From Sphaerolaimus hirsutus (Eukaryota > Nematoda > Chromadorea > Monhysterida > Sphaerolaimidae): 64,000 bases of DNA. Within the stretch, counting starts at the first letter, position 1. Each line of letters opens with the position of its first letter. The notes under the pieces were generated by a model. It made no database searches. It was not told where the DNA came from and worked only from the letters and a program-made list of their open reading frames with translations. The DNA lies in the NCBI GenBank assembly GCA_964036195.1, contig OZ038450.1, forward strand, positions 19,745,208 through 19,809,207, read 5' to 3'. Positions 1 through 64,000 of the stretch are shown here, in pieces. Both the position numbers and the translations under genes were made by a program.

Positions 1-138
1 GGGATTGCTATTTTTGAGATTTCGGGATCGGGATCGGGATCGGGATTGGGGTTTCGGGATCGGGATCGGGATCGGGACTGGTAAATCCCGAAATTTCACG
101 GGATCCGGGATCGGGATCGGGATCCCGTTTGAACCCTA
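1..138 (-). mobile_element. Truncated GATCCC-arm hAT-like element
   Basis: One end of a family-c element (see 53631-54251): GGGATC repeats and a terminus reading CGTTTGAACCCTA at 126-138. The rest lies outside the window. Confidence 0.8.
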
Positions 139-330
139 CCCATGGGGGTGTATTTTTTCGCCACGAAATTTTGAGGGGGGTTTATTCCAGGGGGGTCTAT
201 TATTTCACCAGATATTTTGTGTAATTCCACGCACTCCAATGTAGAAAAATGCACTAATGATAAATAGAAACATATAAGTGTTTATGGACATATTTATATA
301 AATTCATATGTGCGTAAATCCTGTCCTCAA
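139..330. mobile_element. TACCGTATTT-clan fragment
   Basis: G-rich blocks of the form GAGGGGGGTTTATT and TATTATTTCACCAG are the interior of the TACCGTATTT clan. No ends were found. The remainder is AT-rich with nothing recognisable. Confidence 0.5.
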
Positions 331-1214
331 TAGTGATGTAAAGGCACCGGGGCACCGGTGCCCCGGTGCTGGGCACCGAAGGGCACCAGCACCGGTGCTG
401 GTGCGGTGCCATTGCAATCTTCAGGGGTGCCATGCCGGTGCCGGTGCCATTTTTTTCTGAATAGCACCGGTGCCGGTGCGGTGCGGTGCCATTTTTTTGC
501 CGGTGCCAAAGGTGCTAGCACCGGGCCAAAGTAAAAGGCACCGGGAAAGGCACCGACCAAGGCTTCATGTGCTGTGCAATTTTGTCCATAGTATGTGCTT
601 ATTCATATTTCAAAAAACAGCGATATATTTACCCAACCGTTTTTGCCTAACCGACGTGATCTGATGAACGAATCTAAAATTTTGTTGAATTTTAAATCAT
701 TTTTATATTTTATATTTATCTTACTTGTCTGTTCAAAATTTGTTGTCAGTTTATGACAGAGATAGTTCCATTCTCTGTACAGCAACGATTCCGATCAGTA
801 GACAATAGTGGCTATGGACATTGCAGTGAATTAAATATTGTATCTTTCATTTGTAATCATTGTAATTGCTTCTTAAAAGTGATTGCCACATCATTCTGAT
901 CATTTTAAGTGCTCAACCATCAAAATCGGTTGAAAATTCATGGAAATATGCGCTTCCAAAAGTGAGACCACTGAGAAACTGCCCGATATTCACTTCAGAA
1001 ATTCCAGCCCGGTGCGGTGCCTTTCAGTGCTAGCACCGGCAACCCGCCGGTGCCCTTCGGTGCCGGTGCCATTTTTTCCAAAAGGCACCGGTGCCGGTGC
1101 GGTGCGGTGCCATTTTCTGGCCGGTGCCCCAGGGTGCCAGGTGCCCTTTTCATGTGTTGGCAAAGGTGCCGGTGCGGTGCGGTGCCATTTTTCCCGGTGC
1201 CTTTAACATCACTA
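331..1214. mobile_element. GGTGCC-arm hAT-like element, full length, TSD GTCCTCAA
   Basis: Ends TAGTGATGTAAAGGCACC and GGTGCCTTTAACATCACTA. Arms are arrays of GGCACC/GGTGCC. A unique core lies at about 567-998. The 8-bp direct repeat GTCCTCAA is at 323-330 and 1215-1222. No coding capacity. Confidence 0.9.
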
Positions 1215-1463: not shown

Positions 1464-2519
1464 CAGGGTTGGCAAAATCTCAGAAAAAAATAAAAATAAA
1501 ATAAAAATAAAATGGAATATTCAAGAATAAAATAAAATAAAATAAAATGGAAAATTAAAGAATAAAAATAAAAATTGTATAAAAATTCGAATTTTTGTAA
1601 TTTTTTTGTAAAATTGTATAAAAATTTGTATTTTTGTAAAATTGTATAAAAATTCATATTTTTTGTACAATTTTATCTCATTACTTGAGTTTCTACCTGT
1701 TTATTCATGGATCTGGAAGCAGTCCCAAGTGTAAAGTGTCAAATGTCATGTAAAATGTCATGCAAAGTGTCAATTGTCATGACAAATGTAAGGTAAATTG
1801 TAAATTGTCATGTAAAAAAACATGTAAAAAAATAAAGTATCAATTGTCAAGCAAATTGTGTCCAAATCTTAAGTTTTTATATCTAAATCTTATGTTTTGT
1901 ATCCAAATTATGTTGTTGTTGAATCCAAATCTTATGTGAACATTTGGATACAAAAACATAAGATTTGGATACAAAACATACTATGGATACAAAAACATAA
2001 GATTTGGATACACAATTTACACTTTGCATGACATTTTGCATGACAATTGACACTTAACTTTACATTTGTCATGACAATTGACACTTAACTTTACATTTGT
2101 CATGACAATTGACAAATTGCATTACATTTTACGAATGTGCCCAGCACACTCCACTAGTCCTTCTACTGAAAATGCAAACCATTCTTATCAATAATTGTAA
2201 CTTTGCACTTGCAGCTAGCTAACAATACATACTGCATGCAACTTTTGAGAAGTAAGGGAAAAATTTGTCACAGGTTTTTTATGTATATGTTTAATTATAA
2301 CATTTTTCTGGCCTTGCATGCATGATTCTGATTTTTTGTAAAATTTTTGTACAATTTTTGTAAAATTTTTGTAAAATGTGTCATTTTATTTTATTAATGA
2401 CTTTTGGGAATAAAATAAAATAAAATAAAATGAAACAAGAATAAAATAAAAATAAAATAAAATTTTTATACAATTTTTATACAATTTTACTAAAATGAAT
2501 TTTTATAAAACCAACCCTG
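1464..2519. mobile_element. AAATAAAAT-arm hAT-like element, full length, TSD TTTAGGAC
   Basis: Ends CAGGGTTGGCAAAATCTC and the complement CCAACCCTG. Arms are AAATAAAAT arrays with TTGTATAAAAATT units. The core has TGTCATGTAAAATG repeats and an ATCCAAATCTTATG inverted block. TSD TTTAGGAC at 1456-1463 and 2520-2527. A close relative is at 45163-46170. Confidence 0.92.
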
Positions 2520-5712: not shown

Positions 5713-6259
5713 TAGTGATGTAAAAAGCGCCAAGCGCCAATGGCGCCAGAGGAGAGTGGCGCCAAAAGTGGCAGCGCCAAAATAATTTCACTGCTTGTAA
5801 ATGTATGCGGCCCCATGGAACACCTTGGATTCAGTTCCTTATATTTATTTCATGACTAGTGAGGAAAAGTTCTTTGGAGCACTGAGATAAGTTTAATGTT
5901 AATCAGATCAGGTTACCTATAATTTTTTTTTTGTTGCTTCTTGTGTCAGCACTCCCAGACCCTGCACAATGTAAAATGTCATACAAAGTATCAAAAATCA
6001 TGTAAAATGCACTGTAGAATGTAAAATGTACCATGTTCCAGTGTATTTTACATGACATTTGACGCTTTGCATGACATTTAACAATTTACAGTGCATTTTA
6101 CATGACTTTTGACACTTTGCATGACATTTCGCATTTTACTGAGCCTCTGGCACCATGGATAGCTGAGCTGGGCGCCAAGCCAAGCGCCAAAAGCGCCATG
6201 TCGCTTTTTGCTTTGGCGCTAGCGCCAGGCGCCAGCGCCATGGCGCTTTTACATCACTA
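5713..6259. mobile_element. GGCGCC-arm hAT-like element interrupted by a TTTTACAGGG-type repeat
   Basis: Ends TAGTGATGTAAAAAGCGCC and GGCGCTTTTACATCACTA are present, but the flanks (CTCTGGGG, CCCGTGAA) do not form a TSD. The middle contains GCATGACATTT / TTTTACAT blocks. Possibly rearranged or recombined between two insertions. Confidence 0.75.
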
Positions 6260-7467: not shown

Positions 7468-8607
7468 CAACGATGGGTAAGTTCCAAAAAAAAACACTTT
7501 CTGTGTTTTGAGTTTTTCAAAAATGAATACCTGTGTTTTGAGTTTTTTTCTTGAAAAAAACTTGAGTAACTCTGTTTTTATTTCTGTGTTTTTTGTAAAA
7601 ACTCGAGTTTTTTAGTTTTTTCTTAAAAAACTCAAGTTTTTTTCCAAAAAATTCGAGTTTCCCCCCAAATTTTTTTGATTTACAGCATTTCGATCTGGAA
7701 ACAGTTTTTTTCTTATAAAATATTGGTTTTGCACATAACATTTGTGTATTCATTCAAATGTCAAAAAAGTCCTTAAAAATGTCCACCATGAGGACATCAA
7801 CATTACAACACCAGCAACAAAATGCACAGAAGCGACAATTTATGCAGTACTTCCAAATTCTTCAATGGATGTGAACTGTATGGAAGACTACGGAATTGAT
7901 TTGAACTACAACTATCATATTACCTAGAAATACCCCCATGGGCATTATTATTTCGTCAGAAAGTTTTGTAAGGATCATAGAAAATAGTAGGCATTTACGT
8001 ACCCAAAACAGGTTATAAATGCATACAAACAGGATATATTTGAAATAAACATCAGTAGTCAGCTACACAACCTAGTACAGTCTATGTGTAGCTGCAATGC
8101 AATCAGCAGTAATAAATACATCATGTACATTGGATACATGATGTACATCATCCCGGAGGGGGGTATTTCGAGGGGGGCGGGGCTTATTATTTCACCAGTC
8201 CATTTTGAGGGGAGTTAATTCAAGGGGGGGTTTATTCAAGGGAATAAGGTATACTTAAATGTCAAAACTTAAATTGTCAAATCCACCATGAGATGTGCAT
8301 GCATCTTTAATTTCTTTTTTTGTACCATTATAAAATATGAATACATTATGTACATATTTACATACTATAGATGCTTATCTTATCTTGTTTAGTTTAACTG
8401 AATTAATGTGCATTCAACCACTTCGCTGAAAAAAACACAAAAACTCAAAAAACTTTTCTGTGTTTCCGTGTTTCTGTGTTCTCCAAAAAAAACTCATTTG
8501 AGTTTTGAGTTTTTCAAAATTTATGAGTTTCCGTGTTTCTGTGTAAAACAAAAACACAGAAACTCAATGAGTTTCTGTGTTCAATTTCTGTGTTTTTTCC
8601 ATCGTTG
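7468..8607. mobile_element. GAAACTC-arm hAT-like element, TSD ATTATATG
   Basis: Ends CAACGATGG and CCATCGTTG. Arms are arrays of GAGTTTT / GAAACTC with CTGTGTTT. A TACCG-clan fragment (7926-8252, starting AAATACCCCCATGGG) is nested inside. TSD ATTATATG at 7460-7467 and 8608-8615. Confidence 0.88.
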
Positions 8608-10652: not shown

Positions 10653-11041
10653 TACCGTATTTCCTCGAAATATCCCCACGGGTTTATTTTTTCGGGGTGC
10701 AAATTTTGAGGGGGTATTTCAAAAGGGGTGCTTATTCCAGGTGGATTATTATTTCGTCAGAAATTTTTCGTGAAACTTATAGTAAAGTATTATACGCTTT
10801 TACGAACTATTTGGACGAACAAGCATAGTTCGTGTATTTATGTACGTTGATATGTGTAAAATAGCTGCGATGCAAACTGGCAGCAATAGGTAAATACACC
10901 AAGTACATTGCATTCATGATGTACATCATTCCAGACGGGGGGGGGGGTATTTCGAGAAGGTTTATTCTTTCATCAGCTCGCTCAGACCTGGGGTATTTCG
11001 AGGGGGTTAATTCTAGGGGGATATTTCGATGAAATACGGTA
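10653..11041. mobile_element. TACCGTATTT-clan element
   Basis: Ends TACCGTATTTCCTCGAAATA and ATTTCGATGAAATACGGTA. The middle carries GTACATCATT and the G-rich TATTTCGAG blocks typical of the family. An open frame at 10498-10650 just upstream is unsupported. Confidence 0.82.
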
Positions 11042-11588: not shown

Positions 11589-12086
11589 GCGATTACAGCT
11601 CGGACGTAAAATTCCAGCGTAAAATTCCATCACAAAATTGATTACATTAAAGTGGATGATGATTCAGGTCTGCAATTTTTTATGGACAATATATTTATCA
11701 ATACCTTCATTGTGACCAAGGGTCATCGTCCACGGTCACTTCTATTCGATTCTGAAAATTCAAAAATTTCGATTTTACGCCGCAATTTTATGCCAGCTGA
11801 AGAAAAATCAATCGATTAATCAGCTACGCCAGGTGATTGCATGCAATGACATAGCGTAGAAAAGATTTTTCGTCAGCTGGCGTAAAATTGCAGCGTAAAA
11901 TCGAAATTTTTGAATTTTCAGAATCAAATAGAAGTGACCGTGGACGATGGCCGTTGGTCACAATGAAGATATTGATAAACATATTGTCCATGAAAAATTG
12001 CAGACCTGTATCATCATCCACTTTCATGTGTACTCAATTTTGCGATGGAATTTTACGCTGGTATTTTACGTCCGAGCTGTAATCGC
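11589..12086. repeat. Foldback element with GATTACAGCTCGGACG ends
   Basis: The two halves are inverted copies: GCGATTACAGCTCGGACG at the left and its complement at the right, with long partly matching arms. An ACGTAAAAT-rich tail continues to about 12290. No coding capacity. Confidence 0.75.
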
Positions 12087-12500: not shown

Positions 12501-13501
12501 GGCGTAGGCTCGCTTGGCATGTAAACCCGCTTGGCATGTAGACTCGTTGCGGGTGTCCCATCCCATGGGGAGCTGCTCAGCTAGCTATCTATCCCGAGCA
12601 CACTATCCCCTGAGCTCTGCCACCAAATCTTGCAACTATCTACTATCTAAGTGGAGCAAACTTTGAGTGACTGTCTGGTCCCCAACCTTCACCCAAAATC
12701 ACTAAATTTAACTCAATTTTGTCAATTTTGCCATATACCTATCATATGTATTTTGCCCCAGTGAGCCCCCAGAATAATTCTCAGCTATCTACCCCTCCGG
12801 CTCCGAGGGAGAGATTTGTTATCTATGATGCCGCCACAAGGGTCAAAACATTGGAAATTCCTGATCTGCTGTCTACATGCCAAACGGGTTAGATGCCAAG
12901 AGTACAGGCACACTAACAAGTACACCATGATGGCGCCATATGCCAATGGTTATGTGTGCCAGCCAAGCCAAAGCGCCAAGTGCAAAAATTGAAAATCATT
13001 TTCAAAACAGCTAATATTCATTTCTAACAAAAAAGGCAATAGATAGACAATAGATCTGTTTGGAAATGCCTAGTGCACAATAGAGGTAAATGGGGGCCTG
13101 TGCCTCTTGGCATTTAACCTGTTTGGCATGTAGACAGCAGATCAGGGGTTTTCAATGTTTTGACCCTCGCGGCAACATGATAGATAGAAAATCTCTCCTC
13201 TCGAGCTGGAGGGGTAGATAGCTGAGAATTATTCTGGGGGCTAGCTTGGGTAAAATACATATGATAGGTATATGGCAAAATTAACAAAATTGAGTGGAAT
13301 TTAGTGATTTTGGGTGAAGGTTGGGGAACAGTTGCTCAAAGGTTGCTCCACGTTGATAGTAGATAGTTGCACGAATTGGGGGCGGGGCTCAGGGGATAGT
13401 GGGCTCGGGATAGATAGCTAGCTGAGCAGCCCCCCATTGGACGAAACCCCCGCAACGAGTCTACATGCCAAGCGGGTTTACATGCCAAGCGAGCCTACGC
13501 C
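12501..13501. repeat. 1-kb foldback element
   Basis: Left GGCGTAGGCTCGCTTGGCAT and right end ATGCCAAGCGAGCCTACGCC are inverted copies. Arms of about 400 bp match through CAGCTATCTA and ATACCTATCATATGTATTTT blocks. The centre includes CATTTCGCCAAG-like GCGCCA units. No gene seen. An outer pair of partly matching flanks may extend to 12430. Confidence 0.78.
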
Positions 13502-14690: not shown

Positions 14691-15287
14691 TGGCGGCGCA
14701 CCAGGTTATGTGGTACCGTAGGACCCGTTTTATGCAGTTCTAACTTGAGGCCACAGTTTTATCCTCGTGATCGCCAACCATGTGACAGTTTTGGAAAAAT
14801 ATGGATTTACTATCTTTTTCATGTGTTTTCCCGGCTAAGTGTTTTTAAAGTTTTACTGTGTAAGTGTGTAAATCGTTAAAGTGTTCTGAATATTTTGTCA
14901 CTTTATTTCACTGGTCAGTTTTAATGATGGGGTGTTCCCGTCTCCAATTGTCTGCAAAATAGGAAATCAGTTTTCGAATCTTCCGAATGCCGGCATATGT
15001 TATAAGTTTATGTACCTATCTAAAAATAAAATCACGTGATATAAAAATATCTGGAATTCAAAAAATTCAAGAAATTTAGGAATTCGAAAACTCTTTGAGA
15101 GTTTTTCAGAGTTATTTACGTTCCATCGGTGTTGATGCCATGCCTATTTTTCAACCGCTCGCATCAGTAGACTTATTGTAATTTACACCATAAGGCGATA
15201 TTTTGATGATGTTTCATGTCACGTGATAAAACTTTAACAGGTACAAACGTGTGGATCGGGGTTCACACAGACGTCATTACCGTATTT
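14691..15287. other. No gene recognised
   Basis: AT-rich sequence with no element ends or coding signal that I can support. Confidence 0.4.
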
Positions 15288-40320: not shown

Positions 40321-40324
40321 CTAA

Positions 40325-47450: not shown

Positions 47451-47901
47451 AGTCATCAGACAAGTACAGCAACTTGTCTGATATACCTGTAGACTCAGGA
47501 GCTTGAACCATACGCACTCATTAAGTGCTAGTAAAGGTGCCACGCACAACGCCCCGCCCCCCCCCTCTCCCATAGACCTACGTAATGACTGGGCAATAAA
47601 AGTTTTAGAAAAGTTGACTGAAACGTTCTTTCTGATGGATCAGTGTGAAGCTTTAAAACAAATGAAAATATGGAAATGTTTTTTTAGTTTTTTTTCCGGC
47701 ACATGATTTGAACTGAACAATGTGAGTCAATGTATGTGCATAAAGAAGGTATGCATGTATGTATAGTATGTAGATACACACATAAAGTATCCAAGTTTAA
47801 CAATGAAATAAGTATCCAAGAAATAAAAAATAAAAGATGGTGTCCACATATCCTGGTGGTTTTGACAATGATGGAATCGAAGTGTTGTAGAGTATCCACT
47901 T

Positions 47902-48788
47902 ACCGTATTACCTCGAAATACCCCCATGGGGGTTTATTATTTCGCCAGCAAAATTTGAGGGGGGTTAATTCGAGGGGGGGTTTATTCGAGGGTTTTTTTA
48001 TTATTTCGTCAGAAATTTTCGTAAGGATCGTAGTAAATAGTAGGCATTTACATACCCAAAACAGGTAATTAATGTGTCAAAACAGGGGTAATTAATGTGT
48101 CCAAACAGGATATATTTGGACATAAAAACGTAGATAGCTACACAAACTAGTCTACCGTATTTCCTCGAAATACCCCCGGGGGGTTTTTTCAGAGTGAGAA
48201 TTTTGAGGGGGGGTATTTCGAGGGGGGGGTTTATTATTTCGCCAGTAATTTTTTCAAATCCCAGTACTAAAATGTCGTCTGAAACGTACGCAGACGTCGA
48301 AAAATGCAACAAAAATCGCCATTTATAAGACTCTAACGACATTTATAAGTGTGTAGACGTACAAACACTGTTCTCACATAACAGAGTCATCGTTTTTAAC
48401 GCGTGTTCTGCATTGCCGGGATGACAAACCGCAGCCTTTGTCATTTACGTTCTCTGTACACTAAATTTGGGGGGGGGTATTTCGAGGGGGGGGTTTATAA
48501 GTTCATAGTGTCCATTTTGAGGGGGGGTATTTCGAGGGGGGGGGGTATTTCGAGGGGGGGGGGTATTTCGAGGAAATACGGTATGTGTAGCTGCGATGGA
48601 AATTAACAGTAATATACATGTACATTGCATACATGACGTATTTATTATGTACATGAAGTACATCATTCCGAAGGGGGGGGGGTATTTCGAGGGGGGTTTA
48701 TTATTTCCCCAGCCCATTTTGAGGGGGGGGGGTTAATTCGAGGGGGGGGGTAATTAAAGGGGGGGGGGGTAATCAGAGGTGATACGGT
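47902..48788. mobile_element. TACCG-clan element with a second one nested inside
   Basis: Outer ends TACCGTATTACCTCGAAATA and AGAGGTGATACGGTA; inner element 48153-48583 with ends TACCGTATTTCCTCGAAATA and TTCGAGGAAATACGGTA. Both have runs of TATTTCGAGGGGGGG. Confidence 0.85.
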
Positions 48789-48989
48789 ATGCTTATGTCG
48801 TTCTTGCTGCTTATGTTGTGGACATGCTTATGTTTTTTATTTTGTGGACTGTTGTGGACTTTTTGTGGACTTGTGGAACCATGAATGAAAATGCAGATGA
48901 TATGTGATATGATATACGTGTGCAAAACCTATATATGATAAGAAAAGCACTATTTCCACATCAAAATGCTGTAAAATGCGACTGTATGT

Positions 48990-49430
48990 AAAAAAACTAG
49001 AGTTATTAAACAAAAACTCGAGTTTCTACTAAAAAAAACTTGAGTTTCTAACAAAAAACTTGAGTTTTTATGAGAAAAAAAAACAGAAATAAAGCATGGA
49101 AACTAAAGTTTTTTTCATGAAAAAAACTCAAAATACAGATATTGATTTTTGAAAAACTCAAATACAGATATTCATTTTTGAAAAACTCAAATACATATTC
49201 TCATTTTTGAAACACTCAAAATATGGAAATTATTTTTATTTTGAGAACTGACCCATCATTGGCACCCATACAGGTGTAATATGTACACACAAAATTTTTT
49301 TTAGGGGAAACGGAAAATTTTTGCACTTGCCGGAAAACGGAAATGAAAAAAATCTTGCACTTGCCGGAAAGAGGAAATGGAAAAAAAAATTTCAGCTGCC
49401 GGAAAACGGAAAACAAGGTCAGAATCAAGT
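48990..49430. repeat. GAGTTT and GGAAA array fragments
   Basis: 48995-49225 has AAAAACTCGAGTTT / AAAACTCAAA units; 49300-49425 has TTGCCGGAAAACGGAAA units. The second array recurs at 63640-63830. No complete element ends. Confidence 0.6.
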
Positions 49431-49753
49431 GCACGTCCTCCCTAGCAAACCTGTAATGTACAAAAGCAACTCTGGTGGCATCTGGCGTGATGGCCAGTGT
49501 GTCGATGATGTCGGTCACCATGCGCAGCTGCTCGCTCCACTTCTCCGCCAGCGAACCAGACCCGTCAACCAGAAATAAACGATCCAATGGGGCACCCATC
49601 AATTTGCAGTTGCCTGTTGAGTGGTTGGCAACTGGACAAGTGCGACAGGGGAATTTTGTCACATCTAACAGAGGGTTTTTACAGGAAAAGCGGTTCTGAG
49701 GTTGACAAGTGGCGGTGCGGACATCAGATGCCTGTCTGTAGGTGGTATCACTA

Positions 49754-51120
49754 CCGTATTTCTCCGAGTATAATTCCCGGGGCTCTATACAAATTTGTCG
49801 TCATTTTTCAAACACTTTCCAAGTGCTGTGCACAGTGCCCGGGCACTATGCTATTCACCTAATTTTTCACCTAATATTTTTCTACAAAAGAAAAGCTGCC
49901 GCCGATCCATGTGAACGAGACACTCGACCAGGGGCCAGTTCCGCAAAATGAGAAGTGAGAGGTGAAATGGCAAATGCGAAGTGAAATGAGAAGTGAAGTG
50001 AGAAGTGAAATGGCAGTTAAAAATGGCAACTCAAAATAAAAGAAAAATTTAACACATACGTAAACTTGGCAGCCAGCCAAAATATTGCGAAATAGTGATA
50101 AATATAATAAAACTAGGCGGAAAATAGCTAAAACAATCTATATTGAACAAAAATAGCAATTATGAAGGTGAAAATTTGCAATTTTAGCGATTTTGAGCGC
50201 TATCTATATGTTTTCTATCGCTATTGTTTGATCCTAAATATGCAACCGGTAACTTGGACGTAGGCCGACCCGATCAATTTCATAACAAAAAAAATATCAG
50301 CTAGCATGGTGCCAATATTTGCACACGCTACGTTTTGAACGGACAAAAGCGCGATCTGATTGTTCACAAAAAATGACTGGAAATATGGATCGTCATTCTG
50401 TATCCATTTCTCACAGGCGCCATTTCTGTATCCATTCTGTATCCTCAAAAGGCGCCAGCGCCATGGCGCCATTCCATCACTACTATCTATGTGATCCAAC
50501 GTTTGAGCGATTTTCCTTAAATTTTTGCTCCAAATCACTAAAATTTGCTCTATTTTGCCAATTTTTACCTTCATGATAGCTTTTTTCATCTATATGCATG
50601 GTTATTTACCTATTTTAAGCCTATTTTGGCTATTTTCAACTTATTTTTACAGCGATTTTTGGCTGGTTGTCAAAATATCATAAGGTGTATCTCCGATATC
50701 GTGGATTCGGATTAGGAATTTTTACGCTTACGCTTTTTTTACGCTTTCCTAGGTATTTAAAAAATACCTTATGCTTATAGTATCCATACTCAAAACTTGG
50801 AAAGTGTATTTACGCTTACGTTTACGCTTTCCAAAATTACCGGTATTTAACAACTCTGGTGAGAACATTCAAGGTGTTCAAGAGCTATGATTTAGGGTTG
50901 TTTTCACATTTGGTTTCGTTTGAATTTATGCTCTGATATTCAAGTGTTATTCATGTTTTGTTAAAAACACTATGTTCAAATGAGAAATGTGTGAAAAATA
51001 TTAGTGAAAAAATAGAACGGCAGCCTCCAATAGAACGGCACCTCCAATAGAATGGCAGGTAAAAAAGTTGACAAATAGAACGGCGTTTCTCTATTAGAAG
51101 AAATACGGCAACTATTTACC
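49754..51120. other. Repeat fragments, no gene
   Basis: 49754 starts a TACCG-clan piece with CCCGGGGCTCTATAC units. 50405-50495 is a GGCGCC arm ending ATTCCATCACTA. 50700-50865 is a GTAAACG-type array ending TTTAACAACTCTG. 51015-51110 is an ATAGAACGGC array ending AGAAGAAATACGGCA. A minus frame at 49871-50000 (CGTGPWSSVSFTWIGGSF) could be an upstream exon of the vWA fragment but is unsupported. Confidence 0.5.
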
Positions 51121-53630
51121 TATTCATCATAAATACACAAGCAGCCAGTCACATGTAAAGTTCAACTGAAAGCTACTGGCTGAGCCTGGCTCAGCATGGA
51201 CAATCACCCAAGATCTACCACACACTTCACAGCATTGGATATCAGATATCTAGTGAAAACAGACCTGGCACGTAACGCATCTCATAACGTGATTCAGTCA
51301 GACCAGTGAAAACAGCAAACAGCATAGAAATACTCGACCAGTCCATTTCGATGTTATTTTATCAACAACAAAATTTAACTGACGTCTTAATTCGGTGCTC
51401 AAGAGTTATTTGCTCAATTCTCAAAATTACCAGACGGTCTTCCATCAATCAACCAAAAATGATACAAAGGTGATCGCAAACAACAAATCGTAGGTATAAC
51501 TCTTTGATAGCCTACAGTCAGTTTTCCATGCAAAAATGTGTCGACGATTGATCGACTTTGATTGTAAATGATGATTAGGCGGAGTATTTATCGCGCAAAG
51601 TTCCCGATTTTATTACAATTTAGCATCCCGCCTGGAGATAAATTTTTGTTCTCGACGTGCTCTAATCGTTTGGTCCGTCGCATAAATAATGCAGTATTTT
51701 TATCCAATGTAGCCACGTTGTTTACCGGGCAGAGGTGAAAATGGGAACCAGATTCATTTTCTTGGGTGGGTGACATCACTACGCTGTATGTTGTTCGATG
51801 GACAAAAACGCTCAGGCTTTTTTAGCCGAGCGTTTCCAAGTTGACGGGAAAAGAGATAAAACTAGATGATAAAAAAATACATAAATATTTGCAGTAGATC
51901 AAAGACCCAAACCAGGTTTTTGGGGGACTGATATTTTGATTACTATTTAACCTGCTTATTGACAATTCCAAATGCTAGGCATTTGAGTTGGCATGAGAGG
52001 CATTGCAATCACCATGCTGCTTTAAGAGAGCATTCATATTCCTCTTTGAATGTACTGGCTTCTACATAGTAAAATATACAATGTGTGGTGTGTTGCCTAT
52101 AGTATATTTACAGTGTGAAACTTACTGTCTATTCTAGGGTACAACTGCATAGCTTGGGTCTACCGGTTGCATGAATGGCTTATTGTGTAGTGTGGAACCA
52201 TGTGTTTGGTATACACTTGCTGCAGTCAGGTCAAGTTGTATTTCAGCTCCCAATAAAAAATTGGGTGCATATTGTACTCAAACTTCACATGTGTACTGTG
52301 GATACTGCTAATAAAAAAGAATACCAAATATTGCTTTGAGTCCATTGACATCAGCAAACTTAGTTCACATTGTGTCCATATACACATTGTGCTTGCAATG
52401 TAAATGTAAATATTATTGCACTTGCTGGAAGTGGAAGTATGACTCAAAGTTGTTGTGTGTAAACTAAATTCCAGTGGCTTTGCGTTTGCAGTCTGGCTCA
52501 GTAAAATCCTTTGATCTTTGCACAACAGTTCTCACAAAGTGACTGTTATGGTGGGTCACAAAAATTATGGCATTGCTACAACCAGTTAATGTTTTCCTGC
52601 ACTACAATATATTTCTGATTAGGTAGTGTTTCACCTTCAGTATTACTGAACTGACCTCGGTATGAAAATGCTTAGTCCAAAATTGGTCAGTTTTTACATT
52701 GTATTTATTCAGAGTATGGTAAAGCAAACTGCTTGGGCAGTCAAACAAAAGTGATACTTCCAGTGAATATTATTCCTTATAAAGATTCCTGAGAAACATT
52801 TCTTGACAGACTTCAGGTTATTATTCATATAAATATACCAAATATTATTATCAGGGTTCTTGTGGAAGTTCTGATACTTTTTTGGCTGGAGAGTCCAGCC
52901 AAATCACATACTACCCCAGTTATAACTGGGGTCAAAACAAGTCACTTTGCTGCCCTTGGGCATGTGCTATTGGCATAACTAGGGTATTGCATGTTTGTAT
53001 TTCAGATTTTGACCCTCTAGCTCTGGGGAGTTGTATAGATAGCAAACCACTCTTTCGGAGGCATAGAATGCTGAAATTTTTTTTTTTGGGGGGGGGGGGT
53101 GAATGCAAGGGGTTCAATATATAGGCTTCTTCAAGGTGTAGAAGGCAGAAAAAGGGGAAAAATTGCTAAAAGTAGGTGACAAATAGCTCAAATGGGTATA
53201 TAAGCACATAGTACAAAAATATCTGCTATATAAGATTTTGAAAGTTTAAAAAAATTAGCAAAACTACAGGTGAAATTTCTCAAAGACACTCCAGATTGAT
53301 AGATGTAAAAATAAAGTAAAACATGTGTGATTGTGTCATGATAACACGTCATAAAATGTTTTTTAACAATCATACAAGCGTTGGCACATACTGTATTTAA
53401 ATAAAAAACTATTGATTGTGTGCATCGTCACTTAACAGCTTCCCGAAAAAGCGTTGTATTCATTTGAATAAAAATACAGGCATATTGCCAAATATTTATA
53501 ATGTTGATGCCCACCGCGATGCACAACGTCACAAAAAACACCAATCAAACAACAGAAGCCACCAAATTTATGAGCGATGCTACAGGATGGGGAATTCTTC
53601 TTTCCGCGGTAGGACTACCAGGGGGCAGTC
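51121..53630. other. Duplicated non-coding block (unit 2)
   Basis: Counterpart of 38.49-42.28 kb without the four elements found only in unit 1. The two copies share no conserved frame. Nothing coding recognised. Confidence 0.6.
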
Positions 53631-54251
53631 TAGGGTTCAAACGGGATCCCGATCCCGATCCCGGATCCCGTGAAATTTCGGGATTTACCAGTCCCGATCC
53701 CGATCCCGATCCCGAAACCCCAATCCCGATCCCGATCCCGATCCCGAAATCTCAAAAATAGCAATCCCGATCCCGATCCCGATCCCGAAAGTTTTCAAAT
53801 CCCGATCCCGATCCCGAGAAACTCCCAAGTCCGGGATCCCGATCCCGGAAAAATTAGTGGAAATTATCAAAAGTGAAATAATGGCGTTTTTGCATGCAAA
53901 AAACTGGATGCAAACCCCCAGCGTCAATTTTATGCCACTTTTCTGGCATCCAACAGTGTTTTGAGACCTTTATGAACTACTGTGAATGCCAGAAAAATGG
54001 CCAAAATATCTATCCCTAGAACCCAATCCCGATCCCGGAAAAATGCCTATCCCAATCCCGATCCCGATCCCGTGACCCCAATCCCGGCCAATCCCGATCC
54101 CGATCCCGATCCCGAAATCTCAAAAAACCAATCCCGATCCCGATCCCGATCCCGAAACCCCAATCCCGATCCCGATCCCGATCCCGAAATCTCAAAAAGT
54201 GAATCCCGATCCCGATCCCGATCCCGAAAAGTCAATCCCGTTTGAACCCTA
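53631..54251. mobile_element. GATCCC-arm hAT-like element, TSD GGGCAGTC, only in unit 2
   Basis: Ends TAGGGTTCAAACGGGATCCC and CCCGTTTGAACCCTA. Arms are GATCCC arrays with GAAATCTCAAAAA spacers; a core of about 170 bp (53840-54010) contains TTTTTGCATGCAAAAAACTG. TSD at 53623-53630 and 54252-54259, empty site in unit 1 at 42269-42288. Confidence 0.95.
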
Positions 54252-54723
54252 GGGCAGTCCCAGACCCTGTAAAATGCATTGTGATATGTCAAATGTTATG
54301 CAAGTGTCAAGAGTCGTGTAAAATTCACAGGTAAAAGGCCAACGTATGTTTGCCATTTTACAGGGATTTAACATGACTTTTTGACACTTTGCATGACATT
54401 TGACATTTTACAGGGAATTTTGCAGGGTCTGGGATTGGCACCAGGGCTGACTCTCAACTGTACATGGTGGCTAATTAGAGGTGCTGTAAAATTTCGTCCC
54501 ACAGTTAAATATATCTTACTGACGGAAGTATAGTTAGATTTCAAAATATATGGACAAAATTAAGCAGACCAATTTGCAATGGGGATCTCCGGTTGGTACC
54601 GCCTATTTTCAGCTATTATATATGGAAAACTAGTTTTTATTACATATTTTGATGTTTCTCACACAGTTTGTGATTTTTCTCCGTTTCTGGCTACTAAAAG
54701 CCCATTCTGTATCGACTAGTGAT
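54252..54723. mobile_element. TTTTACAGGG-type MITE and duplicated flank
   Basis: GGGCAGTCCCAGACCCTGTA pairs with ACAGGGTCTGGGATTGGCAC at about 54416-54441; interior GCATGACATTTGACATTTTA units. Then unique sequence matching 42.45-42.73 kb. Confidence 0.65.
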
Positions 54724-55541
54724 CAGGGTTGGCAAAATCTCAGAAAAAAATAAAAATAAACTAAAAATAAAATGGAAAATTGGAGAATAAAATAAAATAA
54801 AATAAAATGGAAAATTAATAAAATAAAAATACAATTTTACTAAAATTCAAATTTTTGTAAAATTTTAGTAAAATTGTACAATAATTCGAATTTTTGTACA
54901 ATTTTAGTAAAATTTTACAAAAACTCGAGTGTCTGTTCAATTCTATAGAAAGTTTTCTATCATGTTGCTGAAGTTTCTAGCTGCCAATTTTCAGAACTAG
55001 TGCCTTGTTGTATCTTTCATTGTTGTGATTGCAAAATATTGTTGCTCAAAATTGCAAATTTTCACATTTTAAAAATATTTTCACCTTAAAAAACACTAAT
55101 TTGTGATTTTTTTCTTATTTTCTTCGTTCCATACCTTGAAAAAGCCTATAAAGATATTGAATCCCGCAAGCCCCCCCCCCCACCCAAAAAAACAACAACC
55201 CATTTTTAGCTATCGTCCCTTGGGAGGCGCAATTAGCTCCCCCTGAGGGTCAAAATACAAAATACCTACCTCGCAACCCGTGTCACAAGTTTACTTAATT
55301 TTTTTTGTATTCATCCGCATGCTTCTAGCGTGCACATTGTTTTATGTCCTTGCATTTAAGATTTCTGATTTTTTGTAATATTTTTGTAAAATTTTTGTAA
55401 AATGGTTTCATTTTATTTTATTAATGACATTTCAGAATAAAATAAAATAAACTGAAACATGAATAAAATTAAAATAAAATACAATTTTAATAAAAATAAA
55501 ATACAATTTTAGTAAAAAGAATTTTACTAAAACCAACCATG
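54724..55541. mobile_element. AAATAAAAT-arm hAT-like element, TSD CTAGTGAT, only in unit 2
   Basis: Ends CAGGGTTGGCAAAATCTCAG and AAACCAACCATG. TSD CTAGTGAT at 54716-54723 and 55542-55549. It has inserted into the first bases of a GGCGCC-family element; unit 1 (42731-42738) has the empty CTAGTGATG. Confidence 0.95.
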
Positions 55542-55760
55542 CTAGTGATGTAAAAGCGCCACGGCGTTGGCGCCTGGCGGTAGAGCAAAAGCAAAAAGCC
55601 ATGACGCCTTTGACGCTTTGCACCATTTTGTCGTAACGCTATTGGCTTTTAACGGGTTTTCGTTGCGTGTTAATGCTCTCGGTCGCGTGTACACAGCGGA
55701 GTATCTTACCGCAACAACAACCCTCTATTCATGTTCAAACATGCTTACAGCAGCACCTGA
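55542..55760. mobile_element. Truncated GGCGCC-arm element (unit 2)
   Basis: TAGTGATGTAAAAGCGCC followed by GGCGTTGGCGCCTGGCGG and decayed units; matches 42731-42930. Confidence 0.7.
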
Positions 55761-55827: not shown

Positions 55828-58800
55828 TGATTCACATGGCTATGATCAGTTTATTACTGGCTGAAACCACCCAGTTGTGTTGTGTTGCTTTATATTTGGG
55901 ACCAGCATGTGCAAGTGAGGTGAGATTTGAATATAATGCAGACATTTGAAAAAACAACTTACTGTTAATGTGAAAACCAATTGCAAATGGATCTTTACAT
56001 GCAGAACCAACTGGTTAGTGATGGGATGGTAACATTTATCGATTTCATGTTCCACTGGTGCTGGTATCAAGCAACAGTTATGCTTAGTCTATTGGCAATT
56101 AATCGGTGAGTGAGCTAATGTTCATTACAAGCAAAACAGCTAACAATAGCACCACATAATTAGGTATTTCAAACATAATTGAGTGAAACAACAGAGTATA
56201 ACAATCCCATCACAGCTACATTGGCCTGTGCCAGCGGAAATGGTACCTAAACCTAGGCGACACCGGCCGCGCAGTGTACGTTTACCTCACACTTGCCAGC
56301 TGGCCAATCACCGCTGGACTAAGTGCACTAACTCAATTTGTGCTTTATTGCTGCCCCTTCCATTTGTATTATGTGGAGTGCGCATTTAGCTATGATCCAT
56401 ATTTGGAACCGGACATGGAAAAGTTGTCAGAATATATTGTCACTGTGCCTATGGATGTCATCGCTACTATTATTATGATGTTCTGCTATGGTAATGTGAG
56501 TTTTTCTTCATTTTTCCAGAAATATTACAATGCTAAAACCAACAGCCACTGCGCACAGATTTTCCTGCTCGTAATGCGATCAAAAAGTGAGGCACGTGCA
56601 TTCAATTTAACGATGCGCATGCAGCAGGTAATGTTTCCCATGAATTCACACAAGACAAATATTCAGAGACTTTCACCAATGATTTGACCAGCCGTAAATA
56701 AAATAAGGAATCAGAACACGCAACTGAAATTGAAAGTTGTCAGGTCCATAAAAACGATTGATGACGTCTCTAAAAAAACATGGCGCCTCCCATGAACTAG
56801 GGATGGAAAAAAGCGCTTTTTTTAATGGCCCCGCTTTTTTTTGAAAAAAGCGCTTTTTTTTAAAAAACGCGCTTTTTTCGCTTTTTTTCAAAAATTGTCA
56901 AGACGTTACCCAAAAAGCCCCCAAATATGGTCCTGAGTCAATATATACAGGTATATCAGAGAAGTAGCAGTACTTGTGATGATATATAACCATAGAATCT
57001 CTATGTAATCATCTGATGGCATTATAAGTGCTGATTTCTGCCAAAAAATCCAATTTTATGTCGACTAATTATGTATATCGCTGTTTTTGAATGTTTCTTG
57101 ACTGCAAGTGAAGTTAGGCATGGAATAGTGCTTAAATTTGGCTACAAAAGATGGCTAATACATGACAGTGATGTTTCACACTGTAGAAAAGTGGAAGCAC
57201 ATTGGCTGGATATTATTTACTAGACTGACATATCTCCTCAACTTATTTTTACATGATACCATGCAGGAATAGAAGCAATGCCACTAAAATGCTACAAAAC
57301 CAATGAAAACAACCACCAATGGCAATTTGCATGTGAAATTTTGCGCTTGCGCGCAAAATTTTTTGCAAAATACCTAGTGCATGAGTACTAAAATTTTTGC
57401 CAGCGCTTTTTTTAAAAAAAAAGCGCTGGGACCCTTGCGCTTTTTTTTTAAAAAAGCGACGTTTTTTAAAAAAAAGCGCTTAAAAAAAAGCGCTTGCCAT
57501 CCCTACCATGAACTGCTGCAGGTGCGTCGGCGACAGAGACTACGCCTGGCGGCGCAATTCAGTTTAATGGCCGCATTTTACATAGGAACATGGACAACTT
57601 TCAGGATTGCACATTTTCTGGGCGCCGCCTTCGCGAATATGAAGCAAATATGCGGTGAGACAATAATGACATCATAAATAAATGACCGAATGGGACATTT
57701 GGCCCGCCCGCAGTGCTGCTGTGCGAAATCAACGCTTCGAGCAACGGCGTGGTGTACGTGGCGCTGAACGCGGAGCTGCGCTTGAGGCTGCGCAACATGT
57801 TCACCTGTCACACGTGGAAGGTGCGCTGTTTCACTCAATCTCAGGGGAATGTTAAGCAGCGTAAAAAGCAAGGATGATGTGGTCAGAAGGTGTCTGGTGC
57901 CAGCGATACTGTAGGCTGAAAAAATGATACTGTACGCTGCGCATTTAATCGTCATCGCAAGACTTGATCATTTCCACAGCTGATTTAACAATACAGCAAG
58001 TTTATCCGCCGCTAAACCAAATGACACTATTAAGGCGTGATCACGGGTAATGCCAAAGCAGAAAGGGTCACGCCACTTAAGACAACTTTACCCAGGAGTT
58101 ACGCGCTGGGGTTCAAAAATGCGTCACGGCGCCATCATTCCATGACACCAAGAACAAAAGTGTCTGGCGCCCCCCCCCAGTACCGGCGACGTCAACTGGT
58201 GCGGCAGACATCAGCAGCGAGCAGCTTGGCCAGCCGCATGGGCGCCATCGAGACCGACGCGTCGCTGCACATTCCCGCCTTTGAACCTGCCGCAACTGCA
58301 GCTGCAGTCGCCACTTTCAGCATTGGCGGTGGCAGTCGGGCGGCGACAAGGAATGCTAGAAGCGCCACTGATACGAGCCCCCATAAGGGCAGTGTGCAAG
58401 TGAAAGCGAGGTTGTTTCACATTTCCAATGCAACTTTGTAAGTTGCTTTTCGAGGGTGCGGTAATTGTATTTACGCGTCAAAAACTGAACCAACTGCTGA
58501 AATAGCGCATAACGTTCATTCAAATGAATTGAGCTGAAAATCAGCAAATTGAGTCTTCGCAAACTTTTGAAATATGAACCACTGCCCAATTCAAAGGTTG
58601 TATTTGAATGTCGTTCGTCCGATCGTCAGCAAGCTTTGTATTGGGGTCGGAACCAATTTACATTTGTCGTCGATGTCAACTAGCGTGTGTTGGGCTAATA
58701 ACCGAGCCGCAGTAAAATTTGCACATTTTTAACATGACTATGGTTGAATTCTGACATGACATTGAATACGGATACATAAATGACTTACAGGTCGCGCACG

Positions 58801-59203: not shown

Positions 59204-62200
59204 TCAGTCATCACACAAAACATCGACTGATCGATGGCACTGTCTGAGCAAATGTCTCAACTCCCGCTCGTCATGTTGACACGTGACTGGCGAGTTCAGC
59301 TGTTCCTTCAGCGACGCGATTTTGTCATTTTTCTCACGGATTTCAGCTAGGCTTTCTTCGTGCTGAGCACCCAGTTCAGCATTCCGCTCAAGCCAGAGCT
59401 GGAGCTGTTCCCTGAGCATCTGAGAAATAGGTAAAACATTCTGAATGGATGGATGCATCCGGACCGAAATGTCGTGGAAATTCCAAAGCAGGGTTATCTT
59501 GAATTTCGACCCTCTGAGTGGTTGGATAGATAGCAAATCGTTCCTCCGGAGGGATAGATAGGGTTCAAACGATATATCGTATCGAATATCGAATATCGGA
59601 TATCGACCATTTTTTAATATCGAATATCGATATCGAAAATTTTGAAAAAATATCGAATATCGATATCGAAAATTTTGAAAAAATATCGAATATCGATATC
59701 GGATATCGACCATTTTTTCGATATATCGAACCTATACTGTGTCCCTAAAAAAAGTTATCATTTTCATTTTGAGATATTTATGATTGATCTAATGTGCTTG
59801 ATCTGAGCTGAGAATTATATAAGATGAGTAAAAGTACAGTACTTATAATGTCTTTTTGTTGGAGTGCTAAATTTGAAGCCAGAAAATGCGGATATTCTTT
59901 TTTTTGCAACATGCCCTTACCAATTGTTATTTGTCTGATACACATTGATTCATCATGTTTTTTTCTACATGTTCTACTTTGAGTGATGTAAACCTTGTTA
60001 AAATCACTTGTACCATTCACATTTAACTAAAGAGATGATTAACCATGCGTGCAACCACAAGAAAATACAATATGTCACTTGAAATATGCCTTGCTATACC
60101 AAAAGCAAATCGCAATATCGAATATCGAAAATATCGAAATATCGAATATCGAATATCGAATATCGACCATTTTTTAATATCGAATATCGAATATCGATAT
60201 CGAGGTTCCATATCGTATCGATATCAAATATCGAGTTTCAGAAAAAAATATCGAGTATCGAATATCGATATCGAGTTTCAGAAAAAAATATCGAATATCG
60301 ATATCGAAAAGTCATATCGTTTGAACCCTAGGGATAGATAGCTGAAAAATTTTCTGGGGGGGTTGGGGGGGTTGTGGTGGTTCGATATATAGGCTTTTTC
60401 GGGGCATAGAAGGAAGAAAAGGGAGAAAAATCGATTTTTTTAACGATTACGTTCTTTAAATAATATTTTACAAAAATCTCGTGAATATGGTGACGGTCAA
60501 CACCATATATTTACCGTATTTCCCGAAATACCCCCAGGAGTTTATTTTTTCGGCAGCAAAGTTTGAGGGGGGTTCATTCGAGGAGGGACTATACGGGTCA
60601 ATACAACCCGAACAGACAAAAAGGCATAACCTCGATCGTTTTGACTGCATTAATTTGCAGCATCTGGCAGCTCGAATGCGCGCATTCCAGCTCAGTTTTC
60701 CTTTTTTCAGCATCCCTGTACTTTGACCGTAAATCGTCCCGCTCTCGTCTGAAAAAACACAATACGTGAATTCATGGTAGAAACGGCTCTAATCGTTTTT
60801 GTATTTATGTAGGGTTTTTGTTTATTGATGGTTGGGTTTTATCAGCTGCAACTTTTTAAAAAAACCTATCAATTTTTTAAAGCGCAAGATTCAAAAACGG
60901 CAGCCAATTTTCATTCTCGTATCGTAGGCACTATGTAACAATTCCTCACAATTTGATGTGTGCATTAAAATCGGAAGTTTTTTCATATTTAGCACTTGTA
61001 GCATTTCAGTGTAAAACAACGATTAGTTTGGAACTAAAAAAACCCCGGTGGTTGTAAAATCGACATGGACACCCTATCACGCAGTGATAAATCTTCACTT
61101 GGACTTGACAATGTCCCACCAACAAGAAAATGAAAACGGAGCATACACAATTTTGTCCAAATGTTGCTGGCTGGCGACATTCAGCTTGTGCTGCACCGAC
61201 GCGTTCGTGTTGCTGTTCGAGCTCCCCGACGTAGTAGCATCCGATGCCACTGTTGACGACAGCTGAAATTATAAAATTTTCTTGAAGGATTCAATCAGTG
61301 CGTATTGCTCACGATGCTGGCGTAACCAGGGGGCGGGGGTGCCGCCATCCCCGTCCGGGGTGATACATGTGAAAGGTAAGGAAACGTGATCTGGTGAAAC
61401 GATCATGAGATGATTTTGCAAAAATTTGGCTTCACATGACAGGCATTTTAACTTCACAGGTCGCGACTGCGCCAAGTTCTATGAAAATACACTCAAATTT
61501 TGCCATGAGTCTGTATATGTATGTATGTAAATCCGATACATATACAGCATTCTCTGCCGCCAATTCCAACGCCAATGGCGCCTACGAATGGCGCCAGCGC
61601 GAAGGCGCTATTTCCCTATCACTGGGGTCAAAGTTTAGGGGGGGGGCGCCCGCCTCCCCCTCAAAAATCATGGCAACGCCACTGTTCGCGATCGGCTGTT
61701 CGCATTGGAGCATAGCTGTATTATCATCACGTTATCCGTAGACTTTTTAAAACGTTATTCAAAAATATAACATATCAAACCATGTAAAAATTATACTCCT
61801 CAAACTTGAATGAAAAAATTAAAAAAACACCGATTCCGCTTACCCATTGCGTAACAAGAGGCATAATATCAGGAGCACCATCCTGCTCAAAGACACCTTT
61901 CATCATTTGAGTCAAAACAGACACAGCCGCGCGCCTTTTCCCACTTTCAGAATTCTGCAAATTTACACCAGGTCCTTATTTTAAGTCCATCCAAATGTCC
62001 TGGACAATCCGCCGCAAATCCCAAAACCGACCATAACTTGCCGTAGCGATTTGGCCAAGTCGCGCAGTCGGCTGGTCGCATTGGCGCACTGGTCGCTCCA
62101 CAGCGGCGCCGAATTGGCACTGACGCCAATTGACGCCTGTGACGCTTGCGTCGACGTGCTCGCTGAGGTAAGGCGTAAAATGTTAATTAGTTTTGTATCA

Positions 62201-64000
62201 ACAACTCGGATTGTAATTAGGGTTCAAACGGGATCCCGATCCCGATCCCGGATCCCGTGAAATTCCGGGATTTACCAGTCCCGATCCTGATCCCAATCCC
62301 GAAACCCCAATCCCGATCCCGATCCCGAAATCTCAAAAATACCAATCCCGATCCCGAAAGTTTTCAAATCCCGATCCCGATCCCGAGAAACTCCCAAGTC
62401 CGGGATCCCGATCCCGGAAAAATTAGTGGAAATTATAAAAAGTGAAATAATGACGTTTTTGCATGCAAAAAAGTGGATGCAAACCCCCAGCGTCAATTTT
62501 ATGCCACTTTTCTGGCATCCAACAGTGTTTTGAGACCTTTATGAACAACTGTGAATGCCAGAAAAATGGCCAAAATATCTATCCCTAGAACCCAATCCCG
62601 ATCCCGGAAAAATGCCTATCCCAATCCCGATCCCGATCCCGTGACCCCAATCCCGGCCAATCCCGATCCCGATCCCGAAATCTCAAAAAACCAATCCCGA
62701 TCCCGATCCCGAAACCCCAATCCCGATCCCGAAATCTCAAAAAGTGAATCCCGATCCCGATCCCGAAAAGTCAATCCCGTTTGAACCCTAATTGTAATGA
62801 ACCTAAGGCGGGGTGGCAATAATGCCATGATATCAGGCAAAATACCACGCAAACTTAATAAATGACGTTAAAACTTCAGACCTCAAAAACAGTCTCAAAA
62901 TTAGGGTGCCAACTAGGGTTGGCCGATGTTTTTTTTAAAACGTTTTTTATTAAAAAAACGTGTTTTTAAAAAAAAAACATGACGTCCGAAATGTTTTTTT
63001 TTAAAAAAAACATCGACCAAAATTTTTAGTACTAAGCACTAGGTATTTTGCAAAATTTTTGCGCGCAAGCGCGCAATTTCACACACAAATTGACATTGGT
63101 GGTTGATTTCATTGGTTTTGTGGCATTGTTAGTATCAAAGTATCCATTTATATATGCTACCATGGGTTAATAAGCCGTCATATGTTGCTGTAGTATATAA
63201 TATTGAGGTAATGTGCTTCCATGTACCCTCCACAGTGTGTAAATTCACTCCCAAAGTAACAACCTCGTTTAAAAACCTTGTTTGATCACTATTCCGTGCC
63301 AAACTTTACCTGACGTCACAAACATTCGACTATAAGGCAATATACGAACGATATGTCGACAAAAAATGGATATTTTTGACACAAATCACCACTTATAATG
63401 CTATCCCATGGCTCCACAGACATACTATGGTCATATATAACATCACAGAGTATTGCCACTGTCTGATATACCTATATATGTTGACACAAGGTTATATCTG
63501 GGAGCTTTTAAAAAAACGTTTTTTATTAAAAAAACAACGTTTAAAAAAAAACAACGTTTTTTATTAAAAAAACGTTGTTTTTTTTAAAAACATCGAGTTA
63601 AAAAAAACGTTTTTTTCCAACCCTAGTGCCAACAATTTTTTTAACAAAAACAGAAACGGGAATTTCTTTGCACTTACCGGAAACGGAAAAAAATTTACCT
63701 GCGGAAAGCGGAAACATAATTATTTTGCACTTGCTGGAAAATGGAAACTGATTTTTTTGCATTAGCCGGAAAACTGAATGGAAACCAATAAAATTTTGCC
63801 TGCGGAAAGCGGAAACGGGAAGTTGACCCCCTACTCAAAATACCACCCGTCAAAATGAATCCCCATAGCTGCGAAATCAAAAAATACCCACCATCAGTGC
63901 GCGCAACTGCAGAAGTTAAGATATTCCTCCCTTCAATGGCATTTTCATGCAGAAATTTGATCAATACATGTAGCTCTCTAGAGCCATTTGTGTTGTTTTC
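59204..64000 (-). CDS. Helical / coiled-coil protein of unknown family, 3' part of a gene running off the window
   Basis: Minus-strand exons with GT/AG borders: 63892->64000 (RELHVLIKFLHENAIEGRN), 62038-62162 (STSTQASQASIGVSAN, then SRLRDLAKSLRQ), 61844-61954 (SGKRRAAVSVLTQMMKGVF), 61149-61262 (Ser/Asn-rich, then LNVASQQHLDKI), 60631-60748 (RERDDLRSKYRDAEKRKTEL) and 59204-59419 (MLREQLQLWLERNAEL, then EESLAEIREKNDKIASLKEQ; stop TGA). Phases agree for all joins except 61149-61262 to 60631-60748, where phase 0 meets phase 2, so a small exon is missing there. The last two exons have heptad-like, charged coiled-coil sequence. I do not recognise the family; a very weak resemblance to long coiled-coil proteins such as Tpr is not enough for a name. 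Two large mobile elements sit in the introns. Confidence 0.62.
59569..60330. mobile_element. ATATCG-arm hAT-like element, TSD GGGATAGA
   Basis: Ends TAGGGTTCAAACGATATATC and ATATCGTTTGAACCCTA. Arms are AATATCGATATCG arrays; core about 59735-60110. TSD at 59561-59568 and 60331-60338. It sits in a sequence resembling the core of the AAATAAAAT family (CTCTGAGTGGTTGGATAGATAGC). Confidence 0.93.
60514..60600. mobile_element. TACCG-clan fragment
   Basis: TACCGTATTTCCCGAAATAC and a GAGGGGGGTTCATTCGAGG arm, directly beside the minus-strand exon at 60631-60748. Confidence 0.65.
61320..61700. repeat. GTAACCAGGGGGCGGGGG-type repeat, decayed
   Basis: GGCGTAACCAGGGGGCGGGG at the left and GGGGGGCGCCCGCCTCCCCC with ATGGCAACGCCA at the right, with GGCGCC units between. 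Similar to 39908-40320. Confidence 0.5.
62218..62790. mobile_element. GATCCC-arm hAT-like element, TSD ATTGTAAT
   Basis: Same ends and nearly identical core as 53631-54251, but shorter arms (fewer GATCCC units at almost every array). TSD ATTGTAAT at 62210-62217 and 62791-62798. Lies in an intron of the minus-strand coiled-coil gene. Confidence 0.95.
62914..63625. mobile_element. AACGTT-arm hAT-like element, TSD GTGCCAAC
   Basis: Ends TAGGGTTGGCCGATG and TTCCAACCCTA. Arms are AAAAAACGTTTTTT arrays. The core, read in reverse, resembles that of 56798-57505 (shared TTTTGCGCGCAAGCGCGCAA, GGAATAGTG and GTCGAC blocks). TSD at 62906-62913 and 63626-63633. Confidence 0.93.
63640..63835. repeat. CGGAAAC array
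   Basis: TTGCACTTACCGGAAACGG-type units with TACCTGCGGAAAGCGG, as at 49300-49425. Possibly the arm of a further family; ends not seen. Confidence 0.55.

Follow-up and report, generated by a model that had tools for sequence, protein, structure and literature searches.

Family-specific repeat arrays in the arms of hAT-like non-autonomous elements of the nematode Sphaerolaimus hirsutus

Elements and insertion sites

We analyzed a stretch of 64,000 nucleotides from the genome of Sphaerolaimus hirsutus (contig OZ038450.1, positions 19,745,208 to 19,809,207), hereafter called the window. VWA, cuticlin and ZP domains, which point to an animal, were identified by Pfam in its ORFs, and Rfam and tRNA scans of the window found nothing. 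The window also contains a large set of elements with similar ends (Table 1). Like MITEs, they are short (150-1969 bp), possess TIRs, have no transposase domain and occur in several copies, such as two intact copies and one cut copy of the ATCCCG family and five copies of the AAAATAAAA family. At least ten families with similar ends had been described in the initial annotation, and about eleven could be distinguished here (eleven units were tested, each of which was present in both arms). One of them had to be redefined: the GTAAACGTAAAG family (39332-39794) does not have the ends listed for it, its ends being CAKAGTTGTTAAAA and its motif AAGTA. These ends resemble those of the hAT element Tol2. 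No relatives were found in viral contigs with the three patterns searched, and the eight bacterial records matched by one pattern in genome contigs had a single end apiece, lacked arrays and were taken as chance.

Table 1 Elements identified in the window (unit counts refer to both arms; strand is given where assigned)
Element	Position	Strand	Ends	Unit (copies in arms)	TSD	Remarks
Cut-off ATCCCG-family copy	1-138	-		ATCCCG		One end only; 138/138 identical to 53631-53768, opposite strand
E1	331-1214		TAGTGATGT	GGTGCC/GGCACC (25)	GTCCTCAA, exact	
E2	1464-2519		CAGGGTTGG	AAAATAAAA (15)	TTTAGGAC, exact	
E3	7468-8607		CAACGATGG	GAGTTT/AAACTC (13)	ATTATATG, exact	
E4	19432-19937		TAGTGATGG	GGCGCC (42)	GTTGTGGT, exact	Array nearly throughout
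E5	20497-20755		TAGCATTGAAAA	AAATCT/AGATTT, weak (10)	GTCACCAT, exact	
AAAATAAAA-family element	24947-25782		CATGGTTGG/CAGGGTTGG	AAAATAAAA	GTTTTGAG, exact	93.7% to E11, ungapped
E6	27385-27547		TAGTGATGG	GGCGCC	GTCATGGT, exact	Array only
Pair enclosing E6	27281-27693				Two mismatches	
Short AAAATAAAA-family copy	35598-35747			AAAATAAAA	GTCCCCGA/GTCACCGA, one mismatch	
E7	36318-37222		TAGTGATGG/TAGCGATGG	GGCGCC	TTCAACAG, exact	Arms direct repeats, 172/187
E8	37524-38371		TAACGATGG	TTCGAA (17)	GTGGTGCG, exact	
AAGTA-motif element	39332-39794		CAKAGTTGTTAAAA	AAGTA	One mismatch	Empty paralogous site near 51966
AAAATAAAA-family element	45163-46170		CAGGGTTGG	AAAATAAAA	Two mismatches	93.5% to E2, ungapped
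E9	47293-49261		CAACGATGG/CAATGATGG	GAAACTC	GCACCCAT, exact	Contains TACCGTATT elements
E10	53631-54251		TAGGGTTCAAACG	ATCCCG	GGGCAGTC, exact	Empty site 42276-42283
E11	54724-55541		CAGGGTTGG/CATGGTTGG	AAAATAAAA	CTAGTGAT, exact	Empty site 42731-42738
E12	56798-57505		TAGGGATGG	AAGCGCTT	CCATGAAC, exact	Homologue of E15
E13	59559-60330		TAGGGTTCAAACG	ATATCG (42)	GGGATAGA, exact	
E14	62218-62790		TAGGGTTCAAACG	ATCCCG	ATTGTAAT, exact	565/573 to E10 outside gaps
E15	62914-63625		TAGGGTTGG	AACGTT	GTGCCAAC, exact	Homologue of E12

Pairs of ends were searched with a relaxed motif ([CT]A[AG][CGT]G[AT]T; 120 left and 99 right motifs in the 64-kb window) at distances of 120-3500 bp, and an exact flanking repeat was required. 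Repeats of 5, 6, 7, 8, 9 and 10 bp were found in 1, 3, 0, 13, 0 and 0 pairs, respectively. When one flank was shifted (62 offsets), the exact 8-bp matches averaged 0.0 instead of 13, and with one mismatch allowed 14 pairs with 8-bp target-site duplications (TSDs) were observed versus an average of 0.37. A second search with the named ends (49 left and 49 right motifs, at most one mismatch, or three for the 13-mer) yielded 18 pairs. Their 8-bp TSD was exact in 15 cases, contained a single mismatch in one and two mismatches in the other two; 31 left and 31 right motifs had no partner. Together with the element at 20497-20755, the total is therefore 16 exact 8-bp TSDs, in agreement with the earlier claim of more than ten. 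It should be noted that one GGCGCC copy (5713-6259) has both ends present between unlike flanks without a TSD, which counts against this pattern. Exact copies of the ends on both strands were also more numerous than expected from a first-order Markov control: 16 versus 0.97 for TAGTGATGG/T, 7 versus 0.30 for CAGGGTTGG, 6 versus 0.73 for YAACGATGG and 7 versus 0.00 for TAGGGTTCAAACG, the weakest being TAGGGWTGG (4 versus 0.67, control maximum 3).

Of the 16 exact TSDs, 12 have T as their second base and 10 have A as their seventh, which is consistent with the nTnnnnAn target preference of the hAT element Hermes (PMC10368747) (22 of 32 positions when pooled, p=8e-6); G at position 1 was also over-represented (10/16). 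Perfect TIRs of 9-17 bp were present in 12 of 15 elements (range over all, 2-17 bp), compared with 10-25 bp for hAT elements; those of E7, E9 and E11 have a mismatch at base 3 or 4 but remain similar over ~9 bp. An assignment to Mutator-like elements, whose TSDs are about 9 bp, was not supported, as no exact 9-bp or 10-bp TSD occurred among the motif pairs. The proposed hAT-like identity thus appears well supported at the DNA level by the 8-bp TSDs and empty sites, the target preference, the short ends and the end of E12, TAGGGATGG, which is close to the C/TAGGGATGAAA ends of maize Ac/Ds (PMC3260210). At the protein level it is not supported, since no hAT transposase domain (BED, hATC) was found by Pfam in 264 of the 351 window ORFs of at least 60 aa.

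The window contains a segmental duplication (38484-43167 versus 51130-55740, blocks 71-85% alike), which supplies uninterrupted paralogous sites for three insertions. E10 and E11 are present only in the second copy; in the first, GGGCAGTC and CTAGTGAT each occur just once at the corresponding places; the insertion point of E11 is the tip of a TAGTGATG element common to both copies. The AAGTA-motif element is present only in the first copy, flanked by ATTTCAAA and ATTTCCAA, and the second copy reads AATTCCAA without interruption. For the set as a whole, insertion with an 8-bp duplication and a preference for hAT-type targets are regarded as shown. Insertions unique to one duplicate copy are useful for dating.

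Other repeats were also observed. A second clan is defined by TACCGTATT ends (25 exact copies versus 0.23 expected in the Markov control; 24 left and 26 right ends with at most one mismatch), which would fit a TA target. Examples are 10653-11041, 15278-15689, 30526-30948, 33159-33417, 43258-43820 and 48153-48583, and a 120-bp member (37823-37942) lies within the body of E8. Members of this clan have family-specific units of their own, for example, CTCGAAATACCCCC, TCCGTGTAAACCGCC and TTCTAATAGAAGAGCGCC. Further long palindromic repeats, unlike those above and reaching ~1.5 kb, were observed at 22670-24149, 11589-12086, 12501-13501, 17739-18169, 18490-18825, 40326-40701 and 42936-43167. In addition, 34762-34998 and 49421-49657 are near-identical (98.7%), the second lying in the region of a VWA-like ORF (49216-49800), and a more distant relative is found on the opposite strand at 17563-17734.

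Units and orientation of the arms

It had been suggested that each family fills its arms with a unit of its own. Arm counts of eleven units in 18 elements were compared with 500 shuffles, and the description was borne out: arm totals were 9-71 versus shuffled means of 0.08-1.73, and in all 18 elements the total exceeded every shuffle and copies of the family unit were present in both arms. The weakest signals were those of AAATCT (E5, 20497-20755) and AAGTA (39332-39794). The view that the arms are microsatellites applied to part of the families, as only GATCCC, ATATCG and GGTGCC run head to tail as the exact unit originally given; in the remaining families a core of 5-8 bp is repeated, or the core is scattered within longer blocks.

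The units were largely confined to their own elements, yet some copies lie outside intact elements. For ATCCCG/CGGGAT, 82 of 102 copies were located in E10 and E14 and a further 13 in the cut copy at 1-138, and the elements concerned also accounted for 7/7 copies of the AACGTT-type unit, 8/9 of the AAAAGCGCT-type unit and 16/22 of the TTTTCGAA-type unit. ATATCG was found 44 times in E13 and 22 times elsewhere (66 in total), GGCGCC 49 times in E4, E6 and E7 and 33 times outside (82 in total), and AAAATAAAA 54 times in the five family copies and 16 times outside (70 in total). A common block period of ~28-42 bp was suggestive in several families; it did not exceed shuffles in all arms and was given no weight. 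Protection of CpG as the reason for the arrays was rejected: with a background observed/expected ratio of 0.90 there is no clear CpG depletion, and the GGCGCC arms had ratios of 0.83-1.17.

Comparison of the left and right arms revealed that the arrays have the same direction in both arms wherever orientation is readable. The direct score was higher than the inverted score in 12 of 15 elements and at least 1.5-fold higher in 8 (for example, 214 versus 23 in E10, 240 versus 48 in E7 and 150 versus 18 in E14), whereas the inverted score never exceeded the direct one 1.5-fold and was higher by 1-4 points in E5, E8 and E12. Direct alignment of the arms matched 172 of 187 positions in E7 and 131 of 139 in E10. 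Strand counts of the units were +18/-2 (left arm) and +21/-0 (right arm) for ATCCCG in E10, +8/-0 and +6/-1 for AAAATAAAA in E2, and +15/-5 and +18/-4 for ATATCG in E13. Counts of shared 7-mers, which were less clear than the arm scores, favored direct sharing in E3, E7, E8, E10, E11, E13 and E14 and slightly in E9 and E15; they were neutral for E1 and E2 and favored inverted sharing in E4 and E12.

Thus, the elements are not foldback elements, and a structure of long inverted arms with repeats was rejected. Foldback-type elements with tandem repeats in their arms are known from the sea urchin (TU). That the present elements belong to another superfamily with TSDs of about 8 bp (P/Galileo or Mutator-type foldback) would be in line with Galileo, whose transposase sites lie within tandem repeats of long TIRs (PMC3688188), and with Tetris, which has repeats in its TIRs and TSDs of 8-10 bp (PMC4079207). 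In all three systems, however, the repeats occupy long inverted arms, whereas here the perfect TIRs measure 2-17 bp and the arrays are direct; the T2/A7 bias of the TSDs and the similarity of TAGGGATGG to Ac/Ds ends (PMC3260210) also speak for hAT, and we regard this alternative as very unlikely.

The arms had also been characterized as mostly self-complementary. About six units are palindromic, and of 12 arms examined, 8 showed clearly better folding than their shuffled versions (z -2.4 to -6.9). On the other hand, the arms of E2, E8 and E10 (3/12) did not, that of E3 was a borderline case, matched by 11 of 200 shuffles, and the arms of an element are direct repeats of each other, so that only part of this characterization could be retained and hairpin arms were rejected as a common principle. 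If hairpins or cruciforms formed by self-complementary arms were recognized by the transposase or by host factors whatever their letters, the folding excess would be accounted for, but neither the arms without such excess nor the family-specific unit would be, which leaves this explanation with hardly any probability.

Replacement of units and changes in unit number

E12 and E15 are oppositely oriented and homologous over their full length, with 382 of 485 body positions (79%) and 160 of 188 aligned arm positions identical. Their spacers are colinear and the cores have changed at aligned sites. The arms of E12 contain 20 copies of GCG/CGC (11 + 9) and those of E15 none (0 + 0), whereas ACGT occurs once in E12 (1 + 0) and eight times in E15 (3 + 5). 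In the bodies, GCGC was kept (3 and 4 copies, respectively). Neutral substitution of the arms, as simulated without indels or phylogeny, does not produce this swap: starting from E12, none of 5000 runs led to complete loss of GCG/CGC at 21% or at 30% substitution, compared with 0.4% of runs at 40%, and a gain of ACGT to 8 was never reached (highest 4). In the reverse simulation from E15, a gain to 20 was never observed (highest 12), and loss of ACGT to one copy was easy (9.5% at 21%). The suggestion that arrays are replaced by a conversion-like process gains support from one pair, in which the old unit is gone from both arms; no other pair shows a complete swap. E10 and E13 have their 13-bp ends and the last spacer in common with the unit exchanged (ATCCCG versus ATATCG). 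No body homology above shuffles was observed for E10/E13, E1/E7, E3/E8 or E2/E11.

The number of units also varies. E10 and E14, inserted at different sites, differ by six gaps that are 6 or 12 bp long, five of them plain units, and are identical at 565 of the remaining 573 positions (98.6%). Considering also the cut copy, which matches E10 at 138 of 138 positions, units are gained or lost about as fast as the elements transpose. Gaps in the AAAATAAAA family are of mixed lengths.

Such indels would also be expected if the arms were neutral, with only the short tips being read, slippage in gap repair making the repeats and recombination spreading them between the direct arms, an exchange that direct arms permit. 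The TACCGTATT clan fits as well: its families also have arm repeats of their own, which means that hAT elements are not alone in this genome in carrying arm arrays, and arm amplification may be general there, with binding deciding what is kept. However, separate insertions of a family share its unit, the colinear spacers of E12 and E15 would not have survived plain expansion of a new array, and the hAT transposases studied need sequence well past the tips (PMC10368747, PMC3260210). We consider the neutral explanation rather unlikely, while giving it real weight.

Known systems and a proposed explanation

Clusters of subterminal sites, tandem repeats in foldback arms and several hAT domain specificities per genome are already known. 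Maize Ac/Ds has 8-bp TSDs and non-autonomous members with unrelated fillers, and Ac carries AAACGG hexamers in its outer 200 bp that the transposase binds cooperatively (PMC3260210). The whole maize family has one motif, whereas about eleven occur here in one window, in arrays that are dense and of the same direction in both arms. In Hermes, BED sites, AAG(T/C), are clustered at both ends, which must differ; left-end STR2-7 are antisense and right-end STR1-5 sense, symmetrized ends lose most of their activity, and restoring asymmetry in the first 50 bp does not rescue it (PMC10368747). On our own reading, these STRs would have the same absolute direction as the present arrays, provided that reading of the right end starts at the tip and proceeds inward. 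The motif AAGTA of the element at 39332-39794 is similar to these BED sites. Hermes sites are scattered 4-mers rather than family-specific dense arrays. Herves has CG/AATTCAT repeated at both ends, and four direct copies suffice for binding (PMC3143072); it is a single element and not a set with exchanged motifs. Finally, hAT-type DNA-binding domains recognize diverse motifs (CGG, GCGC or AT-rich), the coelacanth genome encodes at least eight hAT-derived CGG-binding proteins with distinct motifs, and four hAT proteins bind motifs to which the element itself has matches in its subterminal regions (PMC8097297). The CGG-binding proteins differ from the present case in being host proteins, and the parts of that report consulted describe no matching element arrays (PMC8097297). 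A set of families of this kind was described in none of the titles or abstract openings of the literature matches listed (Repbase and most subscription journals lay outside the search), nor did these contain a precedent for numerous families with exchanged units side by side in one region, for a full swap between homologues or for direct arrays.

Because subterminal sites are known in hAT elements and hAT domains bind diverse motifs, family-specific arrays fit directly into this framework. We propose, with a probability of about 0.68, that these are non-autonomous cut-and-paste elements of the hAT type, with arms composed of family-specific arrays of putative transposase binding sites. Given the precedents of Ac, Hermes, Herves and the CGG-binding domains, expanded subterminal sites, each presumably matched to a different transposase, are the best explanation of the arrays. 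The tips of 9-17 bp would serve as cleavage ends, and in the filled arms the N-terminal BED finger of the transposase would find its clustered binding sites, with one motif per family because each family would be served by a differently specified enzyme. Arrays may gain or lose whole units when they are replicated or when excision gaps are repaired, and after a change in transposase specificity a variant unit could be driven through both arms, eventually eliminating its predecessor. Same-direction arrays would make homogenization between the arms possible and would keep the two ends unequal, as Hermes ends require; recombination between the arms could also delete the body, leaving array-only elements such as 27385-27547.

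A further step, which we put forward tentatively and at somewhat less than even odds, is that a recognition code has been caught switching: related hAT elements would replace the word in both arms and keep their ends, spacers and body, the array would name the specificity of the transposase, and its uniform direction would let a new word spread from arm to arm. How a transposase and its many sites change specificity together poses a problem, since a new enzyme cannot work well until a large number of sites have changed. E12 and E15 may represent the two endpoints of such a change in both arms, and about eleven motifs in 64 kb would provide a natural table for comparison with the DNA-binding domains of hAT proteins in this genome. 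MITE arrays could predict which transposase moves which element if arrays and domains do match.
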